From: Actinomycetota bacterium | GTDB taxonomy: Bacteria > Actinomycetota > Actinomycetes > Nanopelagicales > Nanopelagicaceae | Direction of reading: 5' to 3' | Assembly: GCA_026392765.1 (NCBI GenBank) | Contig: JAPLBL010000034.1 | Coordinates: 1-45,110 of the forward strand | Length of the DNA: 45,110 nt | In this document: positions 38,656 through 45,110 of the stretch, in pieces | How the letters are laid out: every line of letters starts with the position of its first letter | How positions within the stretch are numbered: position 1 is the first letter of the stretch | Program-made: the position numbers and the translations under genes | Notes under the pieces: model-generated | Database searches by the model: none | Told to the model about the DNA's origin: nothing | The model's input: only the letters and a program-made list of their open reading frames with translations

Positions 38656-39966
38656 ATGACTCTGAAGCTTTCAGTAATTGGTTGCGGCTACCTCGGTGCA
38701 ACACATGCGGCATGTATGTCCTCTCTCGGTTTCGAAGTAATTGGTATCGATACCGATCAAAGCAAGGTTGATCTCCTCTCTAACGGCGAGCTCCCTTTCT
38801 ATGAGCCAGGGCTAGACACACTTCTTGCTGCAGAGATGAAGACCGGTCGACTCTCATTCACAACTGATTTCTCAGCTGTTGCTGATGCTGATGTTCACTT
38901 CATCTGCGTGGGCACACCGCAGAGTAAGGATGGGCTTGCTGCAGATCTGACCTATGTAAAGTCTTCTGTCGCAGCGATTGCACCTTTTCTTAAAGAAGGT
39001 TCACTCGTTGTCGGAAAATCTACTGTTCCAGTTGGAACGGCGCAATTGCTGCGCGATCAGCTTTCTACGACTGCTCCTCAAGCAGATCTTGCATGGAACC
39101 CTGAGTTCCTTCGTGAAGGTTTTGCTGTTGAAGATACATTGACTCCAAATCGTTTGGTTGTTGGCGTTGCCAATGATCGCGCTGAAGAGATTCTTAAAGA
39201 GGTTTATAAGCCAATCATTGATCTTGGCACTCCATGGATTCGTGCAGATCTACCAACAGCTGAACTCGTCAAGGTCGCTGCAAACTCATTTCTTGCCACA
39301 AAGATTTCATTTATCAATGCCATGGCTGAAGTGTGTGAAGCAGCAGGAGGAGATGTCACTGTCCTTGCTAAGGCAATTGGCTATGACCCACGTATTGGAA
39401 GCCGCTTCTTGCAGGCAGGTATTGGTTTTGGCGGAGGCTGCCTACCTAAAGATATCCGTGCATTTATGGCGCGTGCTCAAGAACTGGGTGCAGATCAAGC
39501 TCTCGAATTCCTACGTGAAATTGATGCAATCAACATTCGTGCACGCCAACGTGTTATCGATGTTGTGCGCGCAGATTTATCTCATGACCTTACTCAATAC
39601 AAGATTGCAGTTCTCGGTGCAACATTTAAGCCCGACAGTGACGATGTGCGTGACTCTCCGGCACTTGATATCGCTGCACAACTTCAAGAAGCAGGTGCAC
39701 AAGTTGTTGTTCATGATCCTAAGGGCATCGAACCTGCACGCAAGCGCTTTCCTAATCTTGATTACCAGGAGAAGGTCGTTGATGCAGTTAAAGGTGCAGA
39801 TGCAATCTTGCACCTCACTGAATGGAAGGAATATCGCGAGCTCGATCCTTCAGTCATTGGTCAATTAGTAAAGTCAAAATTCCTGATTGACGGTCGCAAT
39901 ATGTTAGATCGCAATAAATGGCGCGCAGCTGGCTGGCGCGTACATGCACTGGGAAGAACTGACTAG
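38656..39966 (+). CDS. ugd: UDP-glucose 6-dehydrogenase
   Basis: A 436-residue NAD-dependent enzyme that oxidises UDP-glucose twice to UDP-glucuronate. The NAD-binding motif is [20 protein letters not shown] at the N-terminus; others are [21 protein letters not shown], the lysine in [20 protein letters not shown], and the catalytic cysteine in [14 protein letters not shown]. The C-terminal NAD(H)-binding half has [21 protein letters not shown]-mannose or GDP-mannose dehydrogenase is a less likely reading. It probably feeds uronic acid into the exported polymer. Its TAG stop overlaps the convergent purE stop in CTAG, and its likely terminator lies inside purE. Confidence 0.92.
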
Positions 39967-40478
39967 AAACCAGTTTTAGTATTGCGACGGGCGCTCAATT
40001 GGGCGCCTTTTGCTTTTGCCTCATCTGTCAGCTCAGACAGTTGAGCTTCAACCTTCTTTGATACAGAAGCATCTGATGATCCAATGATTCGTGCCGCAAG
40101 AATTCCAGCATTTTTCGCATTATCAATTCCCACAGTTGCTACTGGGATTCCACCAGGCATTTGAACGATGGAGAGAAGTGAATCCATTCCGTCCAAGTTC
40201 TTAAGAGATACGGGAACTCCGATAACAGGAAGTGTTGTGAGTGCTGCAACCATCCCCGGAAGATGCGCTGCTCCCCCTGCGCCAGCAATGATTACTTTGT
40301 AACCCTTTGATGCAGCGCTCTTTGCAAACTCAACCATTTCTTCTGGCATGCGATGAGCAGAGACAACATCAGCGCTATAGCTAATGCCAAATGAATCAAG
40401 TGCCTTTGCAGCTTCCTCCATGACTGGCCAATCAGAGTCAGAGCCCATGATGATTGCGACATCTTTACGATCACTCAT
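39963..40478 (-). CDS. purE: N5-carboxyaminoimidazole ribonucleotide mutase
   Basis: A 171-residue class I PurE that rearranges N5-CAIR to CAIR in purine synthesis. Motifs are [43 protein letters not shown] and [12 protein letters not shown]. It overlaps the purK end by eight bases and has GGAG six bases before the ATG. The last 20 or so codons ([11 protein letters not shown]) contain, on the other strand, the hairpin that ends ugd transcription. Confidence 0.95.
39989..40017 (+). terminator. Intrinsic terminator of ugd, inside purE coding sequence
   Basis: A stem of eight pairs (39989-39996 with 40001-40008; core GGCGC/GCGCC plus C-G, with two G-U pairs) and an AATT loop is followed by TTTTGCTTTT on the plus strand. 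It lies 23 bases after the ugd stop and within the 3' end of convergent purE. Confidence 0.7.
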
Positions 40479-41583
40479 CGATTACTCCGCTCATGTAGTC
40501 ACGTGCATGCTGCACATCAGTGGTTAATTGTAGGAGGTCTGAACCAACTGCGGTGACATGGCCAATCTTGCGCCCAGCGCGAACTTCCTTCTTGTAGTGA
40601 TGAAATTTGAGGTCTGGATTGCGCGCCATGAGATGCAGGTATGGGCGATACATATCCGTCTTATCGCCACCCAGGATATTTCCCATGACTGCAAAGTCGG
40701 CGGTCATCGAAGGATCGCCAAGCGGGAGATCAAGAATTGCTCGCAAGTGTTGTTCGAACTGACTTGTCACAGAGCCATCAATAGTCCAATGGCCAGAGTT
40801 ATGTGGGCGCATTGCCAGCTCATTGATGTAAAGATGTTCACCTTTCACAAACATCTCCACAGCCATAACGCCAATAACTCCAACTTCTTGTGCAATATCG
40901 AGAGCAATCTTCTGCGCCTTTTCAGCTAGCTCGGCAGAAATACTCTGGGCAGGAGAGATTGTCATCGTGCAGATTCCATCCTCTTGAACAGTCTCTGTTG
41001 GCGTCCATGATGTTGCTTGTCCATGAGGTGAACGTGCGACCATCACAGAAATCTCGGTATCAAATGAGATGAGTTCTTCAATCAGTAATTGTGGCGTTGT
41101 CTTAAGCACCTCGCCCAACTCGTCTTGGGAGTTAATCTTCCAGACTCCGCGTCCGTCATATCCACCTGAAATTGCCTTTGCAATAAGTGGATAGCGATCA
41201 ATATCTGCAGTTGATGTAACAACTTTCCAGGTTGGAGATGGGAATGAACTGAGCTTCTCGCGCATCTGCGCCTTATCTTGCGAATAGATAAATGCCGACG
41301 AAGGCGGATAAACCTTTACACCCGTTGCTTCAAGACCTTTGATGACCGATAGCGGCACAAGCTCGTGTTCGAATGTAATGACATCGCATGAGACTGCAAA
41401 TTTCTTGAGAGCTTCCAAGTCTGTGTAATCACCAACAACGTGATGAGTGATCTGGGCACCAGAATCTTCGGCGCTTTGTGCAAAGAGAAGAAGATCAATT
41501 CCGAGTGCTGTTGCTGGGGCAACCATCATCCGTGCCAATTGTCCTGCGCCTATAACGCCAACACGGGGGAATCTTTCGTTCAC
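40471..41583 (-). CDS. purK: N5-carboxyaminoimidazole ribonucleotide synthase
   Basis: A 370-residue ATP-grasp enzyme making N5-CAIR from AIR, bicarbonate and ATP, the substrate for PurE. Visible are the N-terminal [15 protein letters not shown]-grasp elements ([38 protein letters not shown]) and the metal-site region [17 protein letters not shown]. The start is GTG 41583, five bases after the birA stop; TACGAT seven bases upstream suggests an additional leaderless start. The birA - purK - purE order is conserved in actinobacteria. Confidence 0.95.
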
Positions 41584-41588
41584 GGACG

Positions 41589-42356
41589 CTATCGTAGATG
41601 AACGATGTCCCCCACTGTTACTCGAGAACCATCTTCCAGAATGAGTTCGCCAGTAAGCGTGACATCAACGGCCTTGCCCGTCTTATAGCTTCCATCAGGA
41701 TGTTCAATTCGAACTTGCTGACCCATCGTTGATGAGCGTTCACAGTAGAGATGGCGCAAATCTTCACCGCCTTGCCACCTTTCAAAGAGTTCTTCAAAGG
41801 TGGTTAGAAATGAGGCAAGTATCAGATTGCGATCAAGAATTGGAAATTGATGGAGTGCAAGTGATGTGGCATGCGCAACAGGAAGTTCTTCCTGTGTCAT
41901 TCCAACATTAACTCCAACTCCAATTATGACTCCATCTCCACTTACTTGGGCAATGATCCCACCAACTTTGCCATCACTGATCACAATGTCATTCGGCCAT
42001 TTAAGAGTCGGAGTAAATCCTGGATTAAGTTTTGTGAGTGCGAAGATTGCACTCAGTCCTGTGAGTAATGTGAGAAATGACCAATCAGATTTATCACGTT
42101 GTGGTTTTACATAGAGAGAGAACATGAGAGCAGATGAAGTAGGTGCATCGAATTTTCTTTCGAGTCGACCACGTCCTGCACTTTGATATTCCGTTGCAAT
42201 CACTTCGCCATGCTGCGCTTTTTCTATAGCGACCAATTGAGCAAGATCGTCTTGTGTGGAACCCGTGACTTCAACCACGCTTACTCGCCAGTACCGCGAG
42301 ATATTTTCTGAGATCACCGAACTATCAAGCGGTGGTCTTGGCGCAACTGTGCTCAT
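41589..42356 (-). CDS. birA: Biotin-[acetyl-CoA-carboxylase] ligase BirA
   Basis: A 255-residue biotin protein ligase without an N-terminal DNA-binding domain, so it modifies carboxylases but is not a BirA-type repressor. The biotinyl-AMP loop is GRGRLERKF; others are SLYVKPQ, LKWPNDIVISDGKVGGIIAQ and GVGVNVGMTQ, and a C-terminal SH3-like domain ends the protein. ATG 42356 (MSTVAPRPPLD) is supported by a leaderless -10 seven bases upstream; the frame is open further to 42479 across the carboxyltransferase gene. It is divergent from that carboxyltransferase, whose partner biotin-carrying subunit is its substrate. Confidence 0.93.
   Translation of the reverse strand: MSTVAPRPPLDSSVISENISRYWRVSVVEVTGSTQDDLAQLVAIEKAQHGEVIATEYQSAGRGRLERKFDAPTSSALMFSLYVKPQRDKSDWSFLTLLTGLSAIFALTKLNPGFTPTLKWPNDIVISDGKVGGIIAQVSGDGVIIGVGVNVGMTQEELPVAHATSLALHQFPILDRNLILASFLTTFEELFERWQGGEDLRHLYCERSSTMGQQVRIEHPDGSYKTGKAVDVTLTGELILEDGSRVTVGDIVHLR
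41591..41596 (-). promoter_or_regulatory. Leaderless -10 element of purK inside birA
   Basis: TACGAT on the minus strand, seven bases before the purK GTG at 41583. It includes the last sense codons of birA. Confidence 0.4.
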
Positions 42357-42362
42357 GACTAG

Positions 42363-42369
42363 TACCTTA
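42363..42369. promoter_or_regulatory. Shared bidirectional -10 for birA and the acyl-CoA carboxyltransferase
   Basis: The seven bases TACCTTA read as TACCTT on the plus strand (six bases before ATG 42375) and as TAAGGT on the minus strand (seven bases before ATG 42356). Both start codons are correctly spaced for leaderless transcripts from a single near-symmetric element. Confidence 0.55.
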
Positions 42370-42374
42370 TGTTC

Positions 42375-43946
42375 ATGAGCCCTGATCTGCACACTACCGC
42401 GGGAAAAATCGAAGACCTCCGCGAAAGAATTGATGAAGCTGTCAACGCTGGTTCTGCCCGAGCCGAAGAGAAGCAGCATGCAAAGGGCAAGGGCACCGCT
42501 CGCGAACGTATCGAGATGCTTGTGGATCCTGATTCATTTACAGAAATCGATGAGTTTGCTCGCCACCGCGCACAGAACTTTGGCATGGAGAAGAACCGTC
42601 CCTATGGCGATGGAGTAATCATCGGAACTGCAACTGTGGATGGGCGACCAATTGCACTCTATTCACAAGACTTCACAGTCTTTGGTGGATCACTCGGTGA
42701 AGTACACGCAGAAAAGATTGTAAAGATTGCTGAGTTTGCGCTGAAGTCAGGAATTCCACTGATTGGAATTAACGATTCAGGTGGAGCTCGAATCCAAGAA
42801 GGCGTTGCCTCACTTAATGGTTACGGAAGAATCTTCCGCCTTAACACTCGTTCATCAGGTGTCATTCCTCAGATTTCACTCATCCTCGGTCCATGCGCAG
42901 GTGGATCTGCATATTCCCCAGCGCTGACTGACTTCACCGTTATGGTGAAGGAGACTTCAAACATGTTTATTACTGGTCCTGATGTGATCAAGACTGTTAC
43001 GGGTGAAGATGTTGATATGGAAGAGCTCGGTGGAGCATTCACTCACAGCACCAAATCCGGAAATGCTCATTACATGGCAGATTCTGAAGCTGATGCCATC
43101 GACTACGTGAAAGCACTCTTGTCATATCTTCCATCAAATAATATGGATGGATCTCCAGTCCTTCCACCTACAGAGACTCTCGATAAGAGTGCATCCGACA
43201 CTGCCCTCAACACATTGATCCCTGATAGTCCTAACCAGCCTTATGACATGAAATCCCTGATCCAGGCCCTTGTTGATGAAGGTGAATTCCTAGAGGTGCA
43301 TGCGCTCTATGCACCCAATATTGTTGTTGGATTCGCGCGTATCGAAGGTCAATCCATCGGAATCATTGCTAACCAGCCATCACAACTTGCTGGAACACTT
43401 GATATCAACTCATCTGAAAAAGCAGCACGCTTCTTGCGTTTCTGCGATGCCTTTAATATTCCAATTCTCACTCTCGTCGATGTGCCTGGATTTATGCCTG
43501 GAACAGAGCAAGAGTGGAACGGCATCATTCGCCGCGGCGCAAAGCTTCTCTACGCCTACGCTGAAGCATCAGTGCCTCTTGTAACACTTATTACTCGTAA
43601 GGCATACGGTGGAGCATTTATCGTGATGGGTTCTAAATACCTTGGTAGCGATATCAACTTTGCTTGGCCTAGCGCTGAAATTGCCGTCATGGGTGCACAA
43701 GGTGCGGTCAATATTCTCTATCGTAAGGATTTAGCGGAAGCTAAAGATCCAGATGCAAAGCGTGCAGAGTTAATTACTGAATACACCGAAAAGTTCTCAA
43801 ATCCATACTTGGCCGCAGAGCGTGGAACCATCGATAGCGTCATTGAGCCTGAAGATTCACGTCAATACATCACCAAGGCTTTTCGCACGTTAAAGACCAA
43901 GCGCGATACCTTGCCAGCTCGTAAGCACGGAAATATTCCTTTATAA
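42375..43946 (+). CDS. accD: Acyl-CoA (propionyl/acetyl-CoA) carboxylase beta subunit
   Basis: A 523-residue carboxyltransferase of the AccD5/PccB type that moves CO2 from biotin to acetyl- or propionyl-CoA. Motifs are [20 protein letters not shown], the oxyanion loop [16 protein letters not shown] and the second-half [14 protein letters not shown] and [16 protein letters not shown] use ATG 42375 ([10 protein letters not shown]) because the -10 spacing fits it; ATG 42369 adds two residues and lies inside the proposed -10. It heads a run with the epsilon subunit, maf and biotin carboxylase, as in Rv3280-Rv3285. Acyl chain preference is not decidable here. Confidence 0.94.
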
Positions 43947-43948
43947 GA

Positions 43949-44131
43949 ATGAAATTTACTGTTACAGCAGGCAATCCAACGCCTGAAGAACTCCTTGCGC
44001 TCCAAGCGGTATTAGCACACCACAAAGCAGTCGATATCAAACCTGTCATTAAGCGAAGTGTCTTTGCACTTCCTCAACTACGTCAGCCTCTGCCACATCA
44101 ACTTACCTTCAGCGCACGAAAGCACCGCTAA
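43949..44131 (+). CDS. accE: Acyl-CoA carboxylase epsilon subunit
   Basis: A 60-residue protein beginning MKFTVTAGNPTPEELLALQA, the hallmark of actinobacterial AccE/PccE, which stabilises the alpha-beta carboxylase complex. The rest is basic and probably flexible. It starts two bases after the carboxyltransferase stop, and its own stop abuts the maf start. Confidence 0.87.
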   Translation: MKFTVTAGNPTPEELLALQAVLAHHKAVDIKPVIKRSVFALPQLRQPLPHQLTFSARKHR

Positions 44132-44734
44132 ATGCCTCGTATTGTCTTAGCATCACAATCAACCTCTCGACGTCGCCTGCTTGAAGATGCAGGGCTTAAG
44201 CCAACGATCATCGTCAGCAATGTTGATGAAGAGACTGATTTCTTTAATGCCATGGCTCCTACAGATATGGTCATTGCTCTTGCAATATCCAAGGCTCACA
44301 CTGTTCGCGAGATGATTGATTACCCAGCAATTATCATCGGGTGTGATTCCACATTTGATGTCGATGGAGTCTCTTTCGGTAAACCAGGAACACCTGAGAT
44401 TGCAATCGAGCGCGCGCAGAAGATCAGTGGGCGAACAGGCCTTCTCCACACAGGTCATTGCATTATTGATACAGAGCAAGGAATAGAGATTGCTGATCGC
44501 GTGACTACAAAAGTCACCTTTACAGAAATGACGGATGAAGAGATTGCTGATTACGTGGCATCAGAGGAGCCTTTGCATGTTGCAGGAGGATTTACTCTCG
44601 ATGGCTTCGGAAGTCCATTTATTCCTGTGATTGAGGGCGATTACACCAATGTTGTAGGTATATCGATGCCATTTCTTCGTAGCGCCATGAAGCAACTTGG
44701 TTATTCTTGGCCTCAAGTCAAGGAGATGTCATGA
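44132..44734 (+). CDS. maf: Maf-like nucleotide pyrophosphatase
   Basis: A 200-residue house-cleaning enzyme that hydrolyses non-canonical nucleoside triphosphates. It has the N-terminal [16 protein letters not shown], the metal/acid loop [21 protein letters not shown] and GRTGLLHTG, ending with [10 protein letters not shown]. It lies between accE and the biotin carboxylase as in M. tuberculosis. Its TGA stop overlaps the next ATG (ATGA). Preference among dTTP/UTP-like substrates cannot be told. Confidence 0.93.
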
Positions 44735-45110
44735 AACGCGTATTGATAGCAAACCGAGGAGAGATTGCTCTTCGCGTTATACGTGCTTGTAAAGACCACG
44801 GACTTGAATCTGTAGCGATGTACTCGGAAGAAGATCGCGATGCACTGCATGCACAGAGTGCAGATTTTGCTTATTCACTCAAGGGCACAGTTGCTAAAGA
44901 TACTTACCTCAACATCCCTAAAATTATTGCTCTTGCAAAAGAGTCTGGTGCTGATGCTGTGCACCCTGGATATGGATTTCTTTCAGAGAATGCACATTTT
45001 GCTCAAGCAGTTCTCGATGCTGGACTGATCTGGATCGGTCCCCCACCTGAAGCAATTAGCGCACTCGGAGATAAAGTCTCGGCTCGTCGCATTGCAGCTA
45101 AGGCGGGTGC
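44731..45110 (+). CDS. accA: Biotin carboxylase / biotin carrier subunit (5' part only)
   Basis: The first 126 codons of an acyl-CoA carboxylase alpha subunit. It starts [20 protein letters not shown], the biotin carboxylase N-terminal motif, followed by [24 protein letters not shown] and [14 protein letters not shown] 44731 overlaps the maf stop by four bases and has AGGAG upstream. The ATP-grasp core and the expected biotin attachment site lie beyond the window. With accD and accE it forms the carboxylase that BirA biotinylates. Confidence 0.93.

Follow-up and report, generated by a model that had tools for sequence, protein, structure and literature searches.

The birA/accD locus and its proposed shared element

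The window (the whole stretch of DNA analysed, 45,110 nucleotides) belongs to an assembly of 1.16 Mb that is 81.6% complete. Candidatus Planktophila and Candidatus Nanopelagicaceae, streamlined freshwater Actinomycetes, are among its named relatives in a public collection. Near the right end of the window, birA and accD diverge from a short gap, birA being followed by purK and purE, and accD by an accE-like gene, maf and the biotin carboxylase gene:

39963..40478, minus strand: purE, downstream of purK (PF00731)
40471..41583, minus strand: purK, downstream of birA
41589..42356, minus strand: birA, biotin protein ligase (TIGR00121; BPL_LplA_LipB and BPL_C); start codon ATG 42356..42354
42357..42374, both strands: the whole intergenic region, 18 bp, predicted bidirectional promoter core
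42363..42369, both strands: TACCTTA, predicted shared symmetric −10 element (TANNNTA)
42363..42368, plus strand: TACCTT, predicted −10 hexamer for accD, 6 bp before ATG 42375
42364..42369, minus strand: TAAGGT, predicted −10 hexamer for birA, 7 bp before ATG 42356
42375..43946, plus strand: accD, carboxyltransferase subunit of a biotin-dependent acyl/propionyl-CoA carboxylase (PF01039, E 3e-198); start codon ATG 42375
43949..44131, plus strand: accE-like small subunit, a weak match (PF13822, 23.7 bits, just below the Pfam cut-off of 25)
44132..44734, plus strand: maf-like gene, downstream in the accD direction (TIGR00172)
44707..45108, plus strand: 5' part of a biotin carboxylase gene running past the window end (PF00289); start codon tentative

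An in-frame ATG at 42369, overlapping TACCTTA, was considered as the accD start and rejected; it is missing in relatives that carry TACCGTA, and we therefore take 42375 as the conserved start. By Pfam, BPL_LplA_LipB and BPL_C are the sole domains of BirA and no N-terminal helix-turn-helix (HTH) was detected, so that this protein lacks the feature by which an autoregulating (group II) BirA is recognized. We selected 13 genomes without accD (genera g25, g37 and g40 plus two same-genus genomes) and found birA to be missing from all 13 as well, at E-value cut-offs of 1e-20 and 1e-5; two positive controls had both genes. The joint absence indicates that ligase and carboxylase are functionally linked. 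An accD paralogue is gone from these 13 genomes as well (g25, g37, g40, G229 and G252; 86-100% complete), which suggests that they live without these biotin-dependent carboxylases.

A first-pass annotation had placed the two start codons 18 bases apart and had read the heptamer between them as TACCTT on one strand and TAAGGT on the other, each at leaderless spacing. Both observations held: the gap is exactly 18 bp, and the hexamers end 6 bp before the accD ATG and 7 bp before the birA ATG. As TANNNTA contains TANNNT on both strands, one added base, the A at position 7, is enough to turn a −10 element into a two-way one. T42363 is required by the accD direction only, and A42369 (T on the minus strand) by the birA direction only. 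Counted to the start codons, TANNNT lies 12 bp upstream for accD and 13 bp for birA, as expected of a leaderless signal. This resembles the leaderless genes with a TA-like signal described in PMC3160421, in which TANNNT lies ~12 bp upstream of the start codon; at birA/accD, however, one element would serve two leaderless genes, and the word "divergent" is absent from the main text of that paper. Scored with a matrix built from 83 sites of a complete relative (G015), the two readings are poor matches, with TACCTTA falling on the 1st and TAAGGTA on the 29th percentile. TACCTTA is a rare word genome-wide (G000), with 25 sites as compared to 323 when its letters are reversed. Immediately to the left of the element, a CTAG at 42359-42362 (CTAGTACC) is kept in most same-genus loci and is also found in several other genera of the family, even where birA is not leaderless.

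Bidirectional promoters with a symmetric −10 element are of an already known kind. Their start sites diverge and lie 7-25 bp apart. According to PMC10268837, −11A and −7T pair reciprocally, the start sites are most often 18 bp apart, and −18T is a common stimulatory feature that is not strictly required. Work by Warman, Grainger and colleagues (PMC10268837, PMC12825309) describes five such promoters of E. coli, bioA/bioB among them. Like these promoters, which often lie between divergent linked genes, the birA/accD region carries a shared −10 element on both strands, the −11A/−7T pairing (A42364/T42368 and their complements, present in 53/53 same-genus loci) and predicted start sites ~18 bp apart; if both transcripts are leaderless, the implied distance is 19 bp as compared to the commonest value of 18. 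Unlike the promoters of E. coli and Salmonella, which are defined by mapped start sites, this one is predicted from sequence alone, and −18T is absent in both directions, 51 of 53 loci having G and the other 2 having A at −18 of accD, and the birA equivalent being G or A. Since transcription is predicted to start on the start codons themselves, the promoter would take up the entire intergenic region.

Conservation in the genus, the family and the class

We compared 53 usable loci of the same genus, comprising 26 distinct promoter words (L013 and L037 were dropped because of a cut contig or partial gene, L039 and L043 as duplicates). TACC[G/T]TA stands five bases before the accD ATG in all 53, as TACCGTA in 37 and as TACCTTA in 16. 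An in-frame birA start is found at 18 bp in every one of them, using GTG (42), ATG (10) or TTG (1). A codon that varies at a fixed position, 7 bp from TANNNT, is what a leaderless birA start would give. The A at position 7 is kept in 53/53 loci despite a preference for T at leaderless sites. The anticipated conservation of TACCTTA in relatives applies to TA-N3-TA and not to the exact word.

The preference was derived from a 400-kb sample of G015, for which a purpose-made caller gave 388 gene calls. Of 854 candidate starts, 54 have TANNNT at 6 bp and 29 have it at 7 bp upstream, with counts of 1-12 at each of 34 other distances tested. As far as sequence can tell, leaderless starts are real in this lineage. 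At the 83 leaderless candidates, position 7 is T in 44 and A in 13; A follows 9.6% of all TANNNT in the sample. Whole-genome counting of the double pattern CAY-N6-TANNNTA-N5-RTG was also tried and dropped as evidence: this genome holds 2 matches as compared to 7 for the reversed control, so that the single-genome case is not significant, and the count is uninformative because so short a pattern needs its gene context.

In 12 other genera of the family, TANNNTA precedes the accD start at N5 in 31 of 41 loci, and birA is kept at 18 bp in 12 of the 41. Over the family as a whole, a minus-strand TANNNT is present in all 65 loci with a birA start at this gap, and TANNNTA adjoins accD in 87 of 94 loci. 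Loss of the element with the genes still divergent would have refuted the first-pass reading, and this check thus came out in favour of that reading. The seven losses consist of six TAAAGTG and one TACCGTT, and at none of these loci does birA start 18 bp away. The six loci with TAAAGTG belong to genus g31, in which the birA-direction box is lost and the accD box intact; a seventh stretch of this kind, L209, ends before birA and was dropped from the family counts. In family loci lacking a birA start at 18 bp, this gene begins 12 to ~50 bases further away. We had guessed that the A at position 7 vanishes whenever birA moves. This was rejected, as 22 of the 29 family loci without a birA start at the 18-bp gap retain TANNNTA, and the element is thus not strictly tied to a leaderless birA. 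We read the loci with a displaced birA as probably having the same two-way promoter plus a birA leader. In two loci of genus g29 (L078 and L079), TACCGTA is kept and accD is displaced ~41 bases downstream behind a leaderless upstream ORF of 14 codons; the ORF stop overlaps the accD ATG (ATGA), which suggests that the two may be translationally coupled.

To cover the class, we assembled 50 loci with accD divergently adjoining birA; they come from 25 other families and are made up of 37 out of 60 chosen stretches and 13 out of 19 further class loci; the 60 stretches had been picked for genus diversity (229 genomes matched) before their sequences were inspected. Loci without an adjacent birA (37/99) or in which accD was not found (23/60) were left out. 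The two genes keep the same neighbours over much of the Actinomycetes. TANNNTA occurs in 32 of the 50 loci, as compared to 2.5 expected from dinucleotide shuffles, and it lies 4-7 bases from the birA start codon in 28 of them, representing 14 of the 25 families, where 0.29 were expected. TA-TA words of five other spacings were found in 0-3 of the 50 loci, and an unrelated control word, AT-N4-AT, in 12. The element is missing from 18 loci, and 10 of the 25 families have none; Microbacteriaceae and several other groups use separate, distant promoters, unlike the locus studied here. An in-frame accD start 5-7 bases away on the other side as well was seen in 9 of the 50 loci, from five families and with gaps of 17-21 bp (ten had been scored as double, but the accD-side ATG of L091 is out of frame). 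In further class loci accD is preceded by a leader, in some of them with purine-rich sequence ahead of the ATG. Only TA..TA and its spacing to the start codon are kept class-wide, and the middle bases vary (CCG, CCT, CGG, CGC, AGG, GGC, ATG, CAG). The T needed by accD alone was counted at loci with a leaderless birA −10: of the 30 in which accD is no more than 100 bp away, 24 have it, as compared to 5 of the other 32 (Fisher p = 5e-7, kinship ignored). This set of 62 omits 32 loci without a leaderless birA start (14 of them with an adjacent accD) and includes close relatives, e.g. three Clavibacter; such p-values are optimistic, as related species are not independent.

The predicted two-way promoter and its alternatives

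Taken together, our data support well the view that the 18 bp very probably are a bidirectional housekeeping promoter with both genes leaderless. RNA polymerase holoenzyme would bind TANNNTA in either orientation. Rightward transcription would start at or beside the A of the accD ATG (42375), and leftward transcription at or beside the A of the birA ATG (42356), by which both mRNAs would begin with their start codon and be free of a leader. We infer that both transcripts exist and start at these two codons. As the two −10 boxes overlap, polymerase binding should be exclusive, and presumably only one polymerase at a time would occupy the element.

According to the first-pass annotation, the shared element drives its two leaderless genes in competition. 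As a prediction, the shared element is well backed by conservation, and the competition stays conjectural. In PMC12825309, the basal activity of five E. coli bidirectional promoters was too low for measurable competition, which arose only upon activation, and both hexamers of our locus score low. A weak compromise promoter is thus likelier than a competitive one. Both directions may be basally weak, and the output of accD and birA would then be set mainly by the two imperfect hexamers and not by strong competition. Regulation of birA and accD by exclusive binding is a conjecture, and so is the proposed link of enzyme and modifier through the shared element.

The promoter might also be neutral, genome compaction having set two start codons round one symmetric −10 element without any regulatory meaning. 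This possibility deserves serious consideration, although we do not favour it; it is in keeping with the anatomy of the bidirectional promoter and rivals only the idea of coupling. Symmetry makes bidirectionality cheap, as argued in PMC10268837, and the genome is small (1.16 Mb assembled at 81.6% completeness). However, families whose genomes measure 2-5 Mb and whose gaps are longer have retained the element too, its A persists against the preferred T, and the joint absence of ligase and carboxylase in 13/13 genomes speaks for a functional link between the two.

Alternatively, the element could be the promoter of accD only, with birA being transcribed from elsewhere, e.g. inside accD, and the minus-strand hexamer being a by-product of −10 symmetry. 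Consistent with this, A42369 is the sole base needed beyond the accD −10, the six g31 loci with TAAAGTG keep the accD box without the birA box, and the double pattern does not exceed its control in this genome. We nevertheless judge it improbable, as an A that is disfavoured at leaderless promoters (13/83) is invariant in 53/53 loci, the birA start distance is fixed while the codon changes, and TANNNTA stands at leaderless birA distance in 28 class loci, in which accD mostly lies further off. A site for a protein other than RNA polymerase, i.e. an operator for a biotin-responsive or other regulator, was rejected as very improbable: although many relatives have TAC-S-GTA, which is a short but perfect palindrome, the middle triplet is free to vary class-wide, as expected of a −10 element, and BirA lacks an HTH domain.

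Possible selection at birA/accD and recurrence of the geometry

Bidirectional promoters may be products of selection or mere accidents of −10 symmetry. At birA/accD, a base used in one direction only is kept genus-wide although the promoter consensus prefers another, and 15 other families also have TA-N3-TA between these two genes; both points argue for selection at birA/accD. Tentatively, and as one possibility among others, we propose an ancient selected promoter in which the orientation of the polymerase would have set the supply of ligase versus carboxylase since early Actinomycetes. The streamlined freshwater lineage would have reduced it to a minimum of 18 bp, each mRNA beginning at its own start codon, and the whole-gap geometry would define a recurring class of divergent gene pairs there. 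What appears to be new is a promoter that takes up all of the space between two leaderless genes, its ancient conservation at birA/accD, and the recurrence of its geometry at three other gene pairs. Judged by titles and abstract openings, our literature searches brought up no paper that describes a bidirectional promoter at birA/accD or between any two leaderless genes. In leaderless bacteria, bidirectional promoters could be read from start-codon spacing alone, which would make large genome collections usable for this purpose.

The 18-bp TANNNTA geometry is found at three further divergent pairs in same-genus relatives:

L233-L235: Crp-family regulator (crp-like) / endonuclease III (nth)
L229-L230: nucleoside hydrolase / PfkB-family kinase (the PfkB frame of L229 is cut by the contig end)
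L231-L232: calcineurin-like phosphoesterase / MobA-like transferase

Of 22 recurrent pattern loci examined, 8 are true divergent pairs, including birA/accD; the others were rejected as one-sided or chance matches, a real gene being absent from at least one side. The G015 sample contains one such case among 43 divergent pairs. In several genomes, the nucleoside hydrolase/PfkB pair lies ~10 kb from birA/accD.
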